Positions 52,121 to 59,856 of a DNA stretch of 64,000 nt are shown here, piece after piece. Numbering within the stretch: the first letter of the stretch is position 1; every line of letters starts with the position of its first letter. The stretch lies in the NCBI RefSeq assembly GCF_000243335.1, contig NZ_JH597773.1, positions 1,729,550 to 1,793,549 of the forward strand. Reading direction: 5' to 3'. The translations under genes were made by a program, and so were the position numbers. The notes beneath the pieces were generated by a model. The model did not search any database and was not told where the DNA came from. It saw only the letters and a list, made by a program, of their open reading frames with translations. This stretch comes from Leptonema illini DSM 21528 (GTDB taxonomy: Bacteria; Spirochaetota; Leptospiria; Leptospirales; Leptonemataceae).

Positions 52121-52621
52121 TCAACGCGTCAGGCTTGTGATAAGATTGGCGTATTCGGGAAAATCCTTAATGAGACGGGAACGCTCGGCCATCTCGAAGT
52201 CGGCGAAATCAAAGCCGGGAGCGACGGTGCATCCGACCAGAGAGAACTCGCCTGCGCTTTCTGAGGCAAACCAGGCGCCGGCCGGCACAACGGCCTGATA
52301 CGCCAGCCCGCGACCAAGTTCAATCCGCTGATAGCGCTCAGCACGATTTGCATGCAGCACGTGAACTATGATGGGATCGCCGGCATAGAAATGCCACATC
52401 TCGTCGGATTTGATACGATGAAAGGCCGAGAAATCCCCTCGCTCCAGCAGGTAATAGATACCTGTTGATGCCGACCGGGGCCCCGGGAAAAGACCGGGCA
52501 ACTGGATTTCGCATGAGGAACGGTAGGTTTCCCGGTAGTAGCCGCCTTCAGGATGCGGTTGCATCTGCAGACGTTCAATCAGAGACGCTGCCGATTCCGT
52601 CGATTCCGTCGATTCCGTCAT
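52121..52621 (-). CDS. DUF985 cupin-fold protein
   Basis: The ATG at 52621 overlaps the fur-family stop (ATGA); 166 residues. MQPHPEGGYYRETYRS, then STGIYYLLERGDFSAFHRI, DEMWHFYAGDP and VVPAGAWFAS are the DUF985 cupin signature. The function is not established (epimerase-like or sugar-binding roles have been suggested). Right after the start, three tandem copies of a 9-base unit encode repeated Thr-Glu-Ser. Confidence 0.85.
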   Translation of the reverse strand: MTESTESTESAASLIERLQMQPHPEGGYYRETYRSSCEIQLPGLFPGPRSASTGIYYLLERGDFSAFHRIKSDEMWHFYAGDPIIVHVLHANRAERYQRIELGRGLAYQAVVPAGAWFASESAGEFSLVGCTVAPGFDFADFEMAERSRLIKDFPEYANLITSLTR

Positions 52622-53055
52622 TGGTCCTCCCGACAATCGGCACAGAGCCCGTAGACCTCAAAGACGTGCCCCATCGGCTTGAATCCCGCCGCCTTCAGCT
52701 CTTTCTCAATGCCCGGTTGCGAGCTGATCTCGCCGATACATACCGATTTGCGACACTTCAAGCAGATGGCATGGTGATGGTGGTCCTGGCCCTGATATTC
52801 GAAGCGCGCCGAATCTCTGTTCTGCAATCCGACCTGCGAAACGAGGCCGGCTTCGGTAAGAGTAGTAAGATTTCTGTAAACGGTATCAAGGCTTACCGCC
52901 GGTTGCCGTTCGATGATATTCTGGTGGATCTCCTGAGCCGAAAGAGGGGCCTGCGCTTGAATAAGTATACTCAGTATCTCGGTACGCTGCGGAGTAAGCC
53001 GCAATCCAAGATCCCGGATGCGCTTGAGAGAATGATCCAGCTCCTGTTGGCTCAT
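52618..53055 (-). CDS. Fur-family metalloregulator
   Basis: A 145-residue protein. The winged helix includes LTPQRTEILSILIQAQAPLS and VSLDTVYRNLTTLTEAGLV. The dimerisation domain has the metal motif DHHHHAICLKC and a second CADC, giving a structural zinc site of two Cys-x-x-Cys. Which of Fur, PerR or Zur it is cannot be told from the motifs alone. It is co-transcribed with the DUF985 gene. Confidence 0.9.
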   Translation of the reverse strand: MSQQELDHSLKRIRDLGLRLTPQRTEILSILIQAQAPLSAQEIHQNIIERQPAVSLDTVYRNLTTLTEAGLVSQVGLQNRDSARFEYQGQDHHHHAICLKCRKSVCIGEISSQPGIEKELKAAGFKPMGHVFEVYGLCADCREDQ

Positions 53056-53133: not shown

Positions 53134-54978
53134 TTACCGGAACGGTCCGAAATACCCCGTAGTCGCACGCCTCTCTTCTGTCGTAACGGCACGTCCTCCG
53201 GGTCCACCGTCGGCCTCGATATCACGATAGGGATGCATGACGGTGGCGAAGAAATACAGCGAGCCGTCGCCCAGTCGAATCCAGGAGGGAGACGTGATCT
53301 CGGCTCCGCGCGGACCATGCAGAAGGCGACGAAAATTCCCCGTGCGAACGTTATACGACCAGAGAAAGTTCAGGCTATGGCCGTCATCGGCATCTTCGGC
53401 GATAAAGAGCAGGTCGCTTCCTGGCAGAAAGGCGATGTTGTCGGGCTCGGCCATGCGGTCCGGATCACAGAGATCGGTCTTTCGTCCGGCCACCTGCGAC
53501 TCGGCCAGCGGTCGCCCCAGCACAAGAGGGTACAGCTCACCGATGACATAATCACTATTGATAGATGTATCGGCCTTCAGATCGGCCGCAAAAACGGCCC
53601 CACAACGATTCGCAGTAAGGCGAATATGATCCGCTGCGATGCCCTTTCCTTTTTCAGGTTGCATGGCCTTTTCGATTCGCGAAACGGCAAAGTACAGACG
53701 ATTGCGCACATCGTCATAGGCGACGCCTTCTTTTTTATTGAACTCGGCCGTAGCACCGAGCATGACGGCGTACCGTCGGCTTTCCAGCCTTGAAGCAAGC
53801 ACCGATACTGGCACTCCCTTAAACTCACCGCTTTTCAGCTTCAGGCATTCCAGCTTCGAATCAGGAGCGCTGAGGTTAGACGTTCCCGCCTCCACAGCGG
53901 TGAATCCTTCCGGGCAGGCGTTGTTAACCGGAGCGACGGCATCAAAAAGATCCTGAAAGAGAGGACCCGAAGGGCCCGCAGCGCCGGGAACGATATCACT
54001 TTTCAAGACGGATTCGATCTGAGCCTCTGTGGCATGGCCGAGAGAGACCCACTGCAGATCGGCGATGACTGAAGATTCCCGCAAAACGTCGGCCTTGCGT
54101 TGATTCCAGCGAGCGGCATAAAGCGTTCCCGCCGTAAGATCGCCCGGCTTATCGGCGACAAAGAGAAAGAGCGTGCCGTGTTTTCCGTCATCGCTCATGT
54201 AAACGGTGCGGCGATCGGGCATAACGACGGCAATTTCATGCGAGAAGCGGCCCAGGGCATAACGCTTGCGAGTTTCGGTCTTTCCCGAGCCATCAAGCAG
54301 GATCACCTCAGGCGTCCATCCGTACAGATACGGGTTCATGTTACGCAACACGTCGGTGTGCGAAGCATCACCCGAGAAAAAGCCGGCCATGGCGTTATAC
54401 CGGGCATCGATGCGCCCAAGCGTATCGCGCATTCCCGCGTTCGGTTCATACTCCTCAGATCCTATATGCGATCCCCACGGCGTTATGCTTCCGGCACAGG
54501 GGCTGTAAACGCCTCCCTGTTCGGCAAAGTCCAGGTTCCGCGTCGACAGAGGAATCAGCTTTCCTTCTTCATCCCGCTTTACGGACGTTATATAAACGGC
54601 TCCCGGTACGGATTCAAAATGCTGGACGACGAACAGATTGCCGTCGCGCTCCAGCATCGTTGTGAAATCGTTGAAATTGCTAACGCCGGCAAGCGGACCG
54701 TCGTTCACTCCAAGCGAACGGAAGACGTTGCGAACGGGCTGCCCGGTCCGCGACAGCACCTGACCGTACACTCCGCCTGTAATCGCATCGCCGGAACGCA
54801 GAAACGTCTGGTATTTGATCGGCATATCCTTTCCCTGAAAAACGGCCGAATCAGTGCTGCGAATCGAATGTCTGCCCTCTTCGCCTTCGGGCCAGCCAAT
54901 GCCGCGAAAATCAAGGGAGATTCGCGAGCAACTGACGGCAATCGGGAAGATCAGGGCGAAGAGTATTGCATTTTTCAT
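53134..54978 (-). CDS. phoX: PhoX-like (DUF839) phosphatase, lipoprotein form
   Basis: A 614-residue protein. Its N-terminus is a signal peptide with lipobox AVSC, so it is lipid-anchored outside the inner membrane. SITPWGSHIGSEEYEPNAG, the early NLFVVQHFE, and the late FLPGSDLLFIAEDADDG are the DUF839/PhoX beta-propeller blocks that hold iron and calcium. PhoX releases phosphate from organic esters. Its start overlaps the end of the cyclase gene (ATGA), so it is the last gene of a four-gene coupled operon. Confidence 0.8.
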   Translation of the reverse strand: MKNAILFALIFPIAVSCSRISLDFRGIGWPEGEEGRHSIRSTDSAVFQGKDMPIKYQTFLRSGDAITGGVYGQVLSRTGQPVRNVFRSLGVNDGPLAGVSNFNDFTTMLERDGNLFVVQHFESVPGAVYITSVKRDEEGKLIPLSTRNLDFAEQGGVYSPCAGSITPWGSHIGSEEYEPNAGMRDTLGRIDARYNAMAGFFSGDASHTDVLRNMNPYLYGWTPEVILLDGSGKTETRKRYALGRFSHEIAVVMPDRRTVYMSDDGKHGTLFLFVADKPGDLTAGTLYAARWNQRKADVLRESSVIADLQWVSLGHATEAQIESVLKSDIVPGAAGPSGPLFQDLFDAVAPVNNACPEGFTAVEAGTSNLSAPDSKLECLKLKSGEFKGVPVSVLASRLESRRYAVMLGATAEFNKKEGVAYDDVRNRLYFAVSRIEKAMQPEKGKGIAADHIRLTANRCGAVFAADLKADTSINSDYVIGELYPLVLGRPLAESQVAGRKTDLCDPDRMAEPDNIAFLPGSDLLFIAEDADDGHSLNFLWSYNVRTGNFRRLLHGPRGAEITSPSWIRLGDGSLYFFATVMHPYRDIEADGGPGGRAVTTEERRATTGYFGPFR

Positions 54979-56981
54979 ACCTCAAGCTCCTCATGTGCTG
55001 CGCGCAGGCGCGTCATCAGATATTTTGCCGCGCCGTCGGCGGGGTTCTCTTTCAAAATCTCTTTCAAGAGCGGAGCCGCTTCGGTCATATGCCCTTTTTC
55101 GATCAAACGTACGGCCTCTTCAAAACGCTCTCTGTAACGAATAAGGGGCTCCTTCTCAACGGCGGAGTAGGCCTCAAGCCATTCGTAGACGACGACGGGC
55201 TTATGCTTTCCTTTTACGTTCACACGACCGAGATACCTTTTCAAGAAGAGGTCTCTCTTTTCATCGAGAGAGTCGATGACCTGCTCGCTAACGATGACAT
55301 GCGCTCCATACGTTTTTGTCAGGCTTTCGAGGCGCGACGCCAGGTTAACGGCATCTGAAATGACCGTGCTGTCCATACGCATCGCCTCGCCGACCGTTCC
55401 GAGCATCAGGTCACCTCTGTGAATGCCGATGCCGATGGAGATGGGCGGTAGCCCTTCTTTCGCTCTCATCAAATTGAAATCAACCAGTCGGTAGGTCATA
55501 TCCTGCGCTGCACGCAGAACGTCATCGGCCGATCCCGGGAACAACGCCATGATGGCGTCGCCGATAAATTTGTCGATAAAGCCGCCGTTGTTGCGAATCG
55601 CCGGACTGATATAACTCAGATACGAGTTAATAAACCGAAAATTCTCTTCAGGCGTCATATTTTCGGATAACGTAGTGAACGATCGAATGTCTGAGAAGAG
55701 AATGGACATCTCACGCTTCACACAGTCGCCGGGAAGAACGTCAAGAATATCATTCTTGTTCAGATAATCGAGAAACTCCCGCGGAACAAAGCGGTAATAG
55801 GCGCTGTTGGTTTCGATCAGCTTCTTCTCGCTTCGAATGCGCCGGCGGATGTTCACCGCCAGGACGGCGATCACAACGAGCAGGAAGGTGATCAGCGCGA
55901 GAAATCCGAAGATATAGCTGCGATAACGCTCGTAAAACTCGCGAAACGTAACCGGCTCGTTGATCAGGTGAGACCCATAGGGCAGATCGCCTTCAGAGAT
56001 ACTGAAGCGGCGCAGCTGTTTATAGTCGAAAATATACTCGTTCGGGCTCTCGGTGACGACGGGGATCTCAGACATCGGAACTCCGTCCAGCAGTCGAATG
56101 GCAATGGCGGCGGCGGCCTCTCCCTGCGCCCGACCGCTGATGATCTTGCCGCCGACGGCGCCGTTCCCGAGATAAAAATCCCAGTAGGTATAGACGGGAA
56201 CGCGTGCCAGGCCTGCATAACGCTCGAAGGCCTCTTCATACGTATAGAAGCGGTTATTCGAATCTCTGTTGAAAAGCATAGCCAGGACGATGGCGCCTGG
56301 TTCGAGTTTTTCGATCTCTCGACGAAACTCCTCGATGCGCGCCCCCGTCATATAGCGGAACTTTATTCCCTTTTCTTTATAGTCGGGCTCTACTTTCTGA
56401 AGAGCTCGATTGTTTGCGACTGACGTCACCGAATCGTCGCCGATGATAACGAACTCCTTCGTCTGCGGATGAAGCCTCAGAGCGAGATCGATCGTATCCT
56501 TTGCCGCAAAGGCCTCGACGACTCCAGTGTAGTTTTTTTTTCCAGCCAGAAGCTCGGGCGAGTAGAAATTCACGCCGCAGAAAACGACCGGCGTCGGTTC
56601 GCCAAAGATCTCTTCGCGATGCTTGAACAGAAACTGAAGAGCGGCGTCGTCGACGCTGATGATGACGTCATAGTGAACGCGCTGCGCCTTGTATTTCAGG
56701 GCAGGAACAAGAAGCTCCTGATACTCCGGATCTTCAAATCGTTTCGTATCCATATATTCATAGAAGATACGCACCTTTGTACCCGAGAAGTTACTCTGGT
56801 TAAAGGTATTCTCGATTCCTGAAACGGCCCGTTCCGTCCAGCTCAGTCCTTTATGATACGAATGCAGCACGAGAACGTTCTTTTCCGCCCCCGACGGCGC
56901 TGAAAGAAGAGGAAGGGACTGCCCGACAAACAGGAGCAGCCCGAGGCATAGCAATCTCTTTGTATATAGAAGTGTGCGCAT
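54975..56981 (-). CDS. Class III adenylate cyclase with periplasmic ABC_sub_bind sensor
   Basis: A 668-residue protein. Signal peptide, then a periplasmic binding-protein domain of the ABC_sub_bind type (residues about 33-325; NVLVLHSYHKGLSW, SVDDAALQFL). A membrane helix follows (about 350-372) and a cytoplasmic cyclase domain from about 415 to 600: SILFSDIRSFTTLSENMTPE with metal Asp, GFIDKFIGDAIMALFPG with the adenine-selecting Lys and second metal Asp, and AVNLASRLE with the transition-state Asn and Arg. A helical repeat tail ends it. It should turn binding of an outside ligand into cAMP. It overlaps both neighbours by 1-4 bases. Confidence 0.88.
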   Translation of the reverse strand: MRTLLYTKRLLCLGLLLFVGQSLPLLSAPSGAEKNVLVLHSYHKGLSWTERAVSGIENTFNQSNFSGTKVRIFYEYMDTKRFEDPEYQELLVPALKYKAQRVHYDVIISVDDAALQFLFKHREEIFGEPTPVVFCGVNFYSPELLAGKKNYTGVVEAFAAKDTIDLALRLHPQTKEFVIIGDDSVTSVANNRALQKVEPDYKEKGIKFRYMTGARIEEFRREIEKLEPGAIVLAMLFNRDSNNRFYTYEEAFERYAGLARVPVYTYWDFYLGNGAVGGKIISGRAQGEAAAAIAIRLLDGVPMSEIPVVTESPNEYIFDYKQLRRFSISEGDLPYGSHLINEPVTFREFYERYRSYIFGFLALITFLLVVIAVLAVNIRRRIRSEKKLIETNSAYYRFVPREFLDYLNKNDILDVLPGDCVKREMSILFSDIRSFTTLSENMTPEENFRFINSYLSYISPAIRNNGGFIDKFIGDAIMALFPGSADDVLRAAQDMTYRLVDFNLMRAKEGLPPISIGIGIHRGDLMLGTVGEAMRMDSTVISDAVNLASRLESLTKTYGAHVIVSEQVIDSLDEKRDLFLKRYLGRVNVKGKHKPVVVYEWLEAYSAVEKEPLIRYRERFEEAVRLIEKGHMTEAAPLLKEILKENPADGAAKYLMTRLRAAHEELEV

Positions 56982-58003
56982 CAGTGCACCTCTTCGAAAT
57001 AGTTATTCGTAGCGCGTGCGAAGGCCTCGATCAGGCCAGGAACCTGCAAGTTGCGCCTGCGAATGCTCTCTTCGCGAATATAGATAACGAAAAGATGACT
57101 CGTCTGAACGGGGATCTCCCGCGGAGCGATCTTCTCTTCGATGACGCGAACGGCCATGCGGGCGGCCTCTTCTCCCTGCTCGTATGGCGACACGGCGACG
57201 GCCATCATGCCTCCGTCTTCGACATAAAAGCCCCAGCTGCCGATGGCGGGTATTTTCAGCCGCGGCTCCATACGCTCGATAACCTTGCGCGGCTCGATCA
57301 CGATGCCTTTATCGTCTTTCAGTGTATGGTAGTGCGTCACAAACAGAACGTCGGCCTCGCGGTTCGCACGATCGATGGCGCGATCCCAGTCCTCCATCGT
57401 ATCACAGAGGATCGTTTCAGTCAGAACCATCGGGCCCCAGTCATAGGCCTCAACCTCATGCTGAATAAAGACCGACGTTGACGATGAGTCGGCAATATGC
57501 ATGACCTTGCGCCGATTCGGGGGCAGGATCTGCACAAAGACTTCTTTAAAAGCCTCGAAAGGCAGTCGCTCCAGTATACCCGTGGCGTTCTTCGCCTTAT
57601 CAAATCCGTAATCCTCGGGAAAGGCGTTCACGCCCGTATAGATGATTTTTATTTTCGGATCATCTATGAAGTGGCGCGCCGCGAACTTCTGAGCGTCGTC
57701 ATCGACGGCAATTAAGATGTCGGGATTCCAATCGCGGATCATCTTCACCACCGTCTCGCCCGTCCGCTGCTTGTATTCAACGCCCGGATTTCGCTTGGTA
57801 TTCATGTAGAAGTAGCGCGTATTGTAGGCCTTGTTCTTCAAAACGCGAGCAAAGCCCTCGTTGATATCGGTTACCCAGGAGTAATCCGTATCATAGCTGT
57901 GCAGAATAAATACTCGCGGTTTGTTGAGGTTGTAGGCGATGAGGAAGACGACGACCATCGACACGAAGGCGAAGGCCATCAATTTTTCTAATTGTATTTT
58001 CAT
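56981..58003 (-). CDS. ABC_sub_bind family substrate-binding protein
   Basis: The ATG at 58003 overlaps the transporter stop (ATGA); 340 residues. One N-terminal hydrophobic segment acts as signal or anchor, then RVFILHSYDTDYSWVTDINE, AVDDDAQKFAARHFIDD and RIIYTGVNAF-type sequence parallel the sensor domain of the downstream cyclase. It is probably a periplasmic, membrane-tethered binding protein that presents the same ligand. No ABC permease or ATPase is nearby, so it does not seem to serve an ABC transporter. Confidence 0.78.
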   Translation of the reverse strand: MKIQLEKLMAFAFVSMVVVFLIAYNLNKPRVFILHSYDTDYSWVTDINEGFARVLKNKAYNTRYFYMNTKRNPGVEYKQRTGETVVKMIRDWNPDILIAVDDDAQKFAARHFIDDPKIKIIYTGVNAFPEDYGFDKAKNATGILERLPFEAFKEVFVQILPPNRRKVMHIADSSSTSVFIQHEVEAYDWGPMVLTETILCDTMEDWDRAIDRANREADVLFVTHYHTLKDDKGIVIEPRKVIERMEPRLKIPAIGSWGFYVEDGGMMAVAVSPYEQGEEAARMAVRVIEEKIAPREIPVQTSHLFVIYIREESIRRRNLQVPGLIEAFARATNNYFEEVH

Positions 58004-59856
58004 AAGAGACCCAGCCATTTCCAGAAAGGTATGGAGGCGAAGACTGCGACGATGCGCAGGGCATTCGACACGGCATTGAAGCGATAAAAGGTTTTCGTAT
58101 CAAGATGCGGATCTTTCTCCACCAGTGATTCGATCTGCACGTAATACGTACATTGATACGGAAAAAACCATATATCAGAAAGCATCAAAAGAATAAAACC
58201 GACAACCCAGGGATTCACACCGAGCGCCTGAGCCATGGGAAAAAGCACCGATGCAAGGATGGCCACCGCCGTATTCGTCGGCACGAAAAAACGCAGAACG
58301 ATCACCGTGGCGCTGAGGATGATGACGAAGAGCCAGAACTGGTTCTTCATATAATGCCCCATAAAACTTAACGATGCCGCCGCCTCTTTATCCAGTCCCA
58401 GATAGGAGATCGTACTTACAAAACCGATCAGAGTTCCGAGGTAGAGCAGAAAGGTCCAGTCCGTACTGACCCGGAACTGCTTCGGGCTCAAAAGACCGAC
58501 TGCAAGCGTGGCATAGAGCACCATGAGTCCGATCCACGGAAGCTGAATCTTATGAAGCGATTCCGTTGAAATGCCCACAATAAACAGCATCACGCCGCCA
58601 AGCGCCGCCCATTCCGGCAACGACATCGGACCGAAAGCCCTGTATTGCATCTTGATCTGCTCGCGCGTTACGCCGGGATCTTCTTTGCCGCGACTGTAGT
58701 ATTCGAGCAATAGAAAAATGCCTATCACAAGAACGGCGCCGGCAGCAAGAGAGGCGAGAAGCCAGTAGCCCCAGCTGAAACGCTCTTTTACCTGTTGCGG
58801 CAGAAGTCCGAAGATGACGAAGTGAATGGTCTTACTCGAAAGAAAGATCGTCGAAAGCATCGTAAACCCGGCAAAGCCCGACATGAAAAGATACGTCGAC
58901 GTGCGCCCGCCGGGCTTGTAGTTCGATGAATCGATCAGATCTTTCAGAACGGGCATCATCAGCGCGATACGACCGTTGGCCGAGGGCAGAAGCGGCGTTA
59001 ACAGGGTGCCGATCGAGAAAAGGCTCCATGCATGCCACCGCGGTGAGACGGGTACGGCTCGCAGCATCCACAAGACCATACGAAAGGCCAGGCCCGACGA
59101 TACGATAAGCGAACTGAGACCGAAAATACTGAGGGCAAGATAGAAGGATCCATCCGTGAAGCCCACAAGGGCCACCTCAGGCGGGGCTATGTTCAAGATC
59201 AGAATCGAGAGTATCGCGAAGATGCTCGGAATAAACTCATTCATGAGGCGAAACCCCCACATAAGCACCGTCGCAAGCGATATACACAGGAAGACCAGCT
59301 GATTGCCTTCAGCGATCGTCCCGCGGCCGAAGACAAAAAGAAGCGGAGGCAGGATCATCGTCGCAAGCCATCCAATCGTTTTCAGCCAGTCAGGGCCCTG
59401 CTCACCGTTTGTGCTTTCGACAGAGTCGACGGCCTTAATACCATGGCCCGTCAGGCGACGCATCAGAGCAGACAGCAGCCCCTGAAAAGCCGAAGAACCG
59501 GCAAAGAGGCTTCGCGACCAATCGGCCGCCAGCCTGACGACAAGCGCCTTCTCGGTTACGTGAGCCTTCTGCGCATAAACGCCTTCGGCCTGTAGCGCCT
59601 CTTCGCCGAAGGTATCGCCGGCGACGATCTTCTGATCTCCAGAAGGGGCGCTCAGCGTCACCTCGCCTTCAATCACCCAGTACATAAAATCTGCCGGCTG
59701 ATCCGCAATAAAAATCTCGTCGCCGACCGACAATCGATAACACTCCATCCTTGAAACCACACCGGCGATCTTACGTCGCGGCAGGTTTTGCATGGATGGC
59801 ACCACAAGGATTCGATCCAGAATATCGGGACCGAATTCCACTCTCTCTCCTGGCAT
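58000..59856 (-). CDS. SLC13/DASS-type anion transporter with N-terminal cyclic-nucleotide-binding domain
   Basis: A 618-residue protein. Residues about 15-120 are a CNMP-binding domain (VGDEIFIADQPADFMYWVIE, then AGDTFGEEALQAEG). Residues about 155-618 form 11-13 membrane helices with the SLC13 pattern (LLPSANGRIALMMPVL and FFVPTNTAVAILASVLFP, the paired Ser/Pro-Asn-Thr motifs). It probably imports a divalent anion such as dicarboxylate, sulfate or phosphate with sodium. The usual phosphate-binding Arg of the nucleotide pocket is not conserved. It is first in the operon. Confidence 0.85.
   Translation of the reverse strand: MPGERVEFGPDILDRILVVPSMQNLPRRKIAGVVSRMECYRLSVGDEIFIADQPADFMYWVIEGEVTLSAPSGDQKIVAGDTFGEEALQAEGVYAQKAHVTEKALVVRLAADWSRSLFAGSSAFQGLLSALMRRLTGHGIKAVDSVESTNGEQGPDWLKTIGWLATMILPPLLFVFGRGTIAEGNQLVFLCISLATVLMWGFRLMNEFIPSIFAILSILILNIAPPEVALVGFTDGSFYLALSIFGLSSLIVSSGLAFRMVLWMLRAVPVSPRWHAWSLFSIGTLLTPLLPSANGRIALMMPVLKDLIDSSNYKPGGRTSTYLFMSGFAGFTMLSTIFLSSKTIHFVIFGLLPQQVKERFSWGYWLLASLAAGAVLVIGIFLLLEYYSRGKEDPGVTREQIKMQYRAFGPMSLPEWAALGGVMLFIVGISTESLHKIQLPWIGLMVLYATLAVGLLSPKQFRVSTDWTFLLYLGTLIGFVSTISYLGLDKEAAASLSFMGHYMKNQFWLFVIILSATVIVLRFFVPTNTAVAILASVLFPMAQALGVNPWVVGFILLMLSDIWFFPYQCTYYVQIESLVEKDPHLDTKTFYRFNAVSNALRIVAVFASIPFWKWLGLL

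Follow-up and report, generated by a model that had tools for sequence, protein, structure and literature searches.

The locus lies in a window of 64,000 nucleotides from Leptonema illini DSM 21528, whose genome (G000) comprises 4.52 Mb in three contigs. Four genes on the minus strand make up the operon and, together with the domain at the start of the first gene, can be listed as follows:

58000..59856, minus strand: carrier with matches to PF00027 (31.4 bits) and PF00939 (80.8 bits)
59440..59840 (approximate limits), minus strand: cyclic nucleotide (cNMP)-binding-like domain of the carrier, without the phosphate-binding arginine, placed by alignment and structure match
56981..58003 (alternative start 58018), minus strand: PF04392 binding protein (49.1 bits) with a predicted N-terminal membrane helix and no lipobox
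54975..56981, minus strand: receptor cyclase with a periplasmic PF04392 sensor, a membrane segment and a class III PF00211 domain, assigned from profiles
53134..54978, minus strand: PhoX-type phosphatase (PF05787, 78.5 bits), a predicted lipoprotein and accessory component

The genes are joined by ATGA or TGATG overlaps. The binding protein may start at 58003, where it shares an ATGA with the carrier, or at the alternative ATG at 58018. A preliminary description of the locus had given the same four genes, order and overlaps, and it was also correct in reading the first gene as a fusion of a cNMP-binding-type domain to an SLC13-type carrier and in finding the binding-protein fold twice, once as the standalone protein and once as the sensor of the cyclase. 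Promoter-like sites at the locus are no more frequent than in shuffled sequence. A Fur-family regulator and DUF985 cupin are encoded on the same strand (window 52121–53055), 78 bp downstream of PhoX.

In the AlphaFold2 model of the carrier (pLDDT 83.9), residues ∼7–136 form the cNMP-like domain and residues ∼155–618 adopt a DASS fold that is intact throughout. Known DASS structures (NaS1, NaCT, NaDC3, AtDiT2.1, Pho90 and VcINDY) match the model with Z-scores of 30–37 over 414–457 residues, with values of 37.0 for NaS1, 34.8 for AtDiT2.1, 33.1 for Pho90 and 31.9 for VcINDY. The TRAP protein SiaQM is a more distant structural match (Z of 17–25). At the profile level, the PF00939 score is above the family cut-off, as is that of the DctM-type family PF06808 (40.3 bits), with PF00939 and the DASS folds scoring higher. 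The carrier misses the cut-off of the NCBIfam dass model TIGR00785 (91.0 versus 198.6 bits), and its relatives score 88–93 bits. The tandem SNT sites, which were located by alignment only, have the sequences PSANGR and PTNT in the window carrier and vary among relatives.

The model of the binding protein (pLDDT 93.3) contains a helix at residues 2–31 and matches the structures of CD0873 (6hnj), 3LKV and 3LFT with Z-scores of 22–25. The ligands of CD0873, VC_1101 and SP1069 are the aromatic amino acids tyrosine, phenylalanine and tryptophan (PMC6816091). A profile search gave no match of the binding protein to DctP or TAXI models. Because the N-terminal segment is hydrophobic and a lipobox is absent in all 20 sequences that we checked for these two features, the protein is likely to be tethered by an N-terminal membrane helix that appears to be uncleaved. 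Among 296 spirochaete genomes, the six best matches to the binding protein are the six loci where it adjoins a carrier, and the next two matches are much weaker. The nearest relatives away from a carrier (genomes G083 and G073) adjoin hybrid histidine kinases, which places the family in sensing and not in uptake alone. The standalone relatives found directly before hybrid histidine kinases occupy L096 5514–8948 and L097 1524–5310, in two spirochaetes. The binding proteins have Asp-Asp, His-Ser-Tyr, Trp and Glu positions in common with the cyclase sensors and with further sensors of the family; of 45 conserved positions, the cyclase sensors match 20–23 and the other sensors 13–20. Because this pocket-like motif is family-wide, it does not demonstrate a common ligand of binding protein and cyclase sensor.

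Relatives of the carrier were sought in 48 genomes of the class, in 296 of the phylum and in genome contigs, with further searches of 343 and 337 genomes from the groups around two hits and of 289 genomes around a third, the last of which returned the query genome only. Carrier matches were found in 20 genomes overall. In 18 of them, representing Spirochaetota, Alphaproteobacteria and metagenome-assembled genomes of other groups, the carrier is followed directly downstream and on the same strand by a PF04392 protein of one clade (20 loci). Of the other two genomes, G012 has a truncated carrier whose chromosomal position corresponds to that in G013, and G415 has a distant match. By this computation the linkage between carrier and binding protein is strict. 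Across the 19 loci where the spacing was measured, it ranges from −19 to +72 bp, 13 of the pairs overlap and −4 is the commonest value. At 12 loci the pair occurs with no cyclase nearby, as is the case in most of the alphaproteobacterial and other non-spirochaete genomes. This core is older and more general than the preliminary description supposed. The arrangement is not a product of chance, given that four further spirochaete genomes have relatives in which carrier, binding protein and receptor cyclase follow one another in this order. The preliminary description had left conservation of the neighbourhood to be checked; carrier, binding protein and cyclase do form a conserved unit, and the objection that the grouping is not conserved fails.

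Two of the spirochaete loci look defective. In G013, the carrier is split between two overlapping frames and the cyclase contains an in-frame stop (L030 6485–8484 and 9472–11457), and in G012 all that is left in the equivalent position, downstream of groEL, is the truncated carrier (L031 8602–10245). Either decay of the operon or errors in the assembly of draft genomes would account for these defects. Two near-alike carrier/binding-protein loci, L033 and L034, are filed as Phycisphaera and Chitinophaga, indicating that the names of these metagenome bins are unreliable.

All six spirochaete carrier/binding-protein loci have a class III cyclase. At five of these (G000, G013, G115, G187 and G065) it is an orthologous PF04392-receptor cyclase within the same operon, with a metallophosphoesterase placed between binding protein and receptor cyclase in G065. 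In the 296 spirochaete genomes, the sensors of these carrier-linked cyclases rank first to fifth among the matches (E-values of 1e-168 to 1e-180, the next being 1e-102), and a cyclase domain is present in none of the five unlinked relatives that we examined. A divergent dCache cyclase lies beside the carrier in G059. In the alphaproteobacterial genomes G298 and G972, the sole class III cyclase match is in each case a dCache-HAMP cyclase that adjoins the carrier or is one gene away. Overall, 8 of the 18 genomes have a cyclase next to the carrier, against an expected 0.23 (P about 3e-12). This above-chance linkage was computed from per-genome cyclase counts and a span of 6 kb per carrier copy, and the figure serves as a guide only, since the model assumes random placement and independent genomes.

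The class III catalytic residues of the window cyclase are intact. The segments FSDI, KFIGDAIM and SDAVNLASR align with OaPAC and contain the two metal aspartates, the Lys/Asp substrate pair and the Asn-Arg pair, and the enzyme is predicted to make cAMP. The circuit had been described as self-contained, which is doubtful because the whole genome (4.5 Mb) holds 27 class III cyclase domain matches, 26 of them besides the operon cyclase. In a midpoint-rooted tree of 22 sequences, in which some forks are open and one row is long, a single clade unites the carrier-linked binding proteins, and the sensors of the cyclases fall among other spirochaete sensors. Because the cyclase sensors fall outside the carrier-linked clade, the receptor is more likely to have been recruited than copied from the neighbouring binding-protein gene; a local duplication of the fold within the operon was ruled out by the tree, where the two are old, separate lineages.

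The PhoX protein keeps the equivalents of Cys179, Glu194, Glu273 and Asp292 of Pseudomonas fluorescens PhoX, which we take to be metal-ligand residues, and reads Lys in the region of Arg385. In the neighbourhoods compared, PhoX is absent beside the carrier at relatives' loci; it is specific to the window locus and was ruled out as a core part of the system. The presence of PhoX had been taken to suggest phosphate or a phospho-ester as the ligand. Since PhoX lies outside the conserved core, phosphate as the ligand, or phosphate ester chemistry at the locus, is only a hint; what stands of the suggestion is that other phosphatases recur near the carrier. Genes for HAD-IIA hydrolases of the TIGR01459 type lie beside four alphaproteobacterial carrier loci (L069 10177–11034, L070 1187–2074, L071 11092–11904 and L073 7475–8368), and in two genomes the carrier/binding-protein pair is followed by a gene for a PstS-family-like binding protein (L072 8472–9392 and L074 11254–12192). 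This recurrence is descriptive, and some of the genomes are probably related.

The reading that we favor, with a probability of about 0.58, is a binding-protein-dependent DASS-type secondary transporter that in spirochaetes is coupled to a receptor adenylate cyclase reporting the same or a similar solute. From sequences, gene context and predicted models, we infer that the PF04392 protein, which its N-terminal helix would anchor to the outer face of the inner membrane, would capture a small solute and hand it over to the DASS-fold elevator carrier, which would transport it at the expense of an ion gradient. In the spirochaetes, we infer that the receptor cyclase, with its related PF04392 sensor, would respond to the same or a similar ligand and signal it as cAMP; because the cyclase is made from the same operon, uptake and signalling would be expressed together. 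PhoX, an exported phosphatase of local occurrence, may release the solute or its phosphate or may scavenge either.

Before TAXI-GltS was described, only the TRAP and TT transporters were known among secondary carriers to use a soluble binding protein (PMC12344293). Judged by the families of its carrier and binding protein, the pair described here is none of TRAP, TTT and TAXI-GltS, and with all three excluded on this basis we would count it as a further form of binding-protein-dependent secondary transporter. The TAXI-GltS system (Bordetella BP0403/GltS) consists of a binding protein and a GltS secondary carrier (PMC12344293). The two systems are alike in that the gene for a membrane-tethered binding protein is coupled in translation to that for an elevator-type secondary carrier belonging to neither TRAP nor TTT. 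They differ in the carrier, which is DASS-like here and GltS there, and in the binding protein, here a PF04392 protein with an N-terminal membrane helix and there a TAXI lipoprotein. In addition, a cNMP-like domain is present in most of the carriers described here, and in spirochaetes the pair is linked to a receptor cyclase. It has been proposed that an elevator carrier may be required for binding-protein dependence, which further classes would test (PMC12344293). Such a test case would be provided by a carrier that belongs to DASS, an elevator family of this fold that has been studied in depth, and that is strictly linked to a tethered binding protein.

TRAP transporters (DctPQM, SiaPQM) likewise combine a binding protein with a carrier of the same fold superfamily, as seen in the SiaQM and PF06808 matches given above, but here there is no DctP or TAXI protein, the carrier is nearer to DASS in fold and profile, and no gene for a TRAP-type small Q subunit lies between carrier and binding protein in the window or in relatives. 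The DASS/SLC13 proteins (VcINDY, LaINDY, NaS1, AtDiT, Pho90) share the fold and the PF00939 profile with the carrier, which differs from them in its sub-cut-off NCBIfam score, altered-looking SNT motifs, constant binding-protein partner and N-terminal cNMP-like domain. The binding protein has the PF04392 fold of TrpX (SP1069), CD0873 and VC_1101, but is only 16–18% identical to these proteins, has Asp-Asp where the 3LKV sequence reads Ala-Thr-Pro, carries a membrane helix and is partnered with something other than an ABC transporter. SLC9C1, the sperm Na+/H+ exchanger with a cyclic-nucleotide domain, also places a secondary carrier and a cNMP domain in one chain; its carrier is unrelated, however, and the domain described here is without the phosphate-binding arginine. 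In the literature searched, no paper was found on PF04392 sensor domains or on SLC13 proteins carrying a cNMP domain. The operon looks like an uptake system of a kind not described before, dependent on a binding protein and equipped with its own reporter. Its recurrent association with receptor cyclases, whose sensors are of at least two types in different lineages, would make for a simple system that encodes uptake and second-messenger signalling side by side.

Several points count against the favored reading: the hybrid kinases beside the nearest relatives of the binding protein, the family-wide spread of the pocket-like motif, the scarcity of neighbouring cyclases outside the spirochaetes and the fact that, to our knowledge, the DASS proteins studied so far function without a binding protein. 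The last of these would favor an ordinary DASS carrier whose co-expressed neighbours are mechanically independent, the binding protein serving the cyclase or another receptor. However, the binding protein is tied to the carrier and not to the cyclase, as the 12 loci without a nearby cyclase attest, and we consider this the least probable of the readings. Alternatively, the carrier could be the sensor or regulatory platform of a transceptor, to which the tethered binding protein docks to report its ligand, with transport minor or lost and the cyclase as a second input. The hybrid kinases beside relatives of the binding protein, the altered look of the SNT motifs, the unusual regulatory-type domain at the N-terminus of most carriers and the frequency of cyclase neighbours are all consistent with a transceptor, which is unlikely but comes foremost among the alternatives; the intact carrier fold argues against it, as does the pair in most alphaproteobacterial and other non-spirochaete genomes, where no cyclase is nearby.

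The preliminary description had further suggested that cAMP made by the cyclase binds the cNMP domain of the carrier and gates transport directly. The N-terminal domain does match the nucleotide domain of MloK1 (Z of 18, rmsd of 1.9), the Gly-Glu of the phosphate cassette is retained in most carrier versions, and every spirochaete carrier paired with a binding protein has both the domain and a nearby cyclase. However, none of the 14 aligned carrier domains has the arginine of the phosphate-binding cassette, and a Tyr and a second Glu often stand in its place; in the window carrier the MloK1 arginine is not aligned to an Arg and, as we read the alignment, the β2–3 loop has apparently lost its glycine too. 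This phosphate-contacting arginine has been called invariant, and even its change to Lys disrupts cAMP allostery (PMC2275311). Because this residue is missing from all 14 domains, binding of cAMP is doubtful, and a different nucleotide as ligand or a structural role is possible. Nor is the correlation between domain and neighbouring cyclase strict across all loci. Carriers without the domain occur, one of them adjoining a cyclase (L056), and seven loci (L033, L035, L067, L069, L070, L072 and L074) have the domain with no cyclase nearby, as is the case for most domain-bearing carriers outside the spirochaetes. With 26 other cyclase matches in the genome as well, direct gating by cAMP is quite improbable. 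The transporter that we favor might still be extended to a further transporter class, a DASS elevator with a tethered binding protein, in which the cyclase responds to the ligand of the binding protein and the carrier is subject to feedback, through its divergent cNMP domain, from the cyclic nucleotide so made or from a different nucleotide; this seems improbable, ranking between the transceptor and direct gating.

In G187, the product of the gene after the receptor cyclase (L046 2566–5874) is a TLC/MFS-like membrane protein that has HEAT repeats together with a cNMP domain of its own. That domain keeps the GE...RSA cassette, including the phosphate-binding arginine, and the protein is a possible candidate for the cAMP receptor of the G187 operon.
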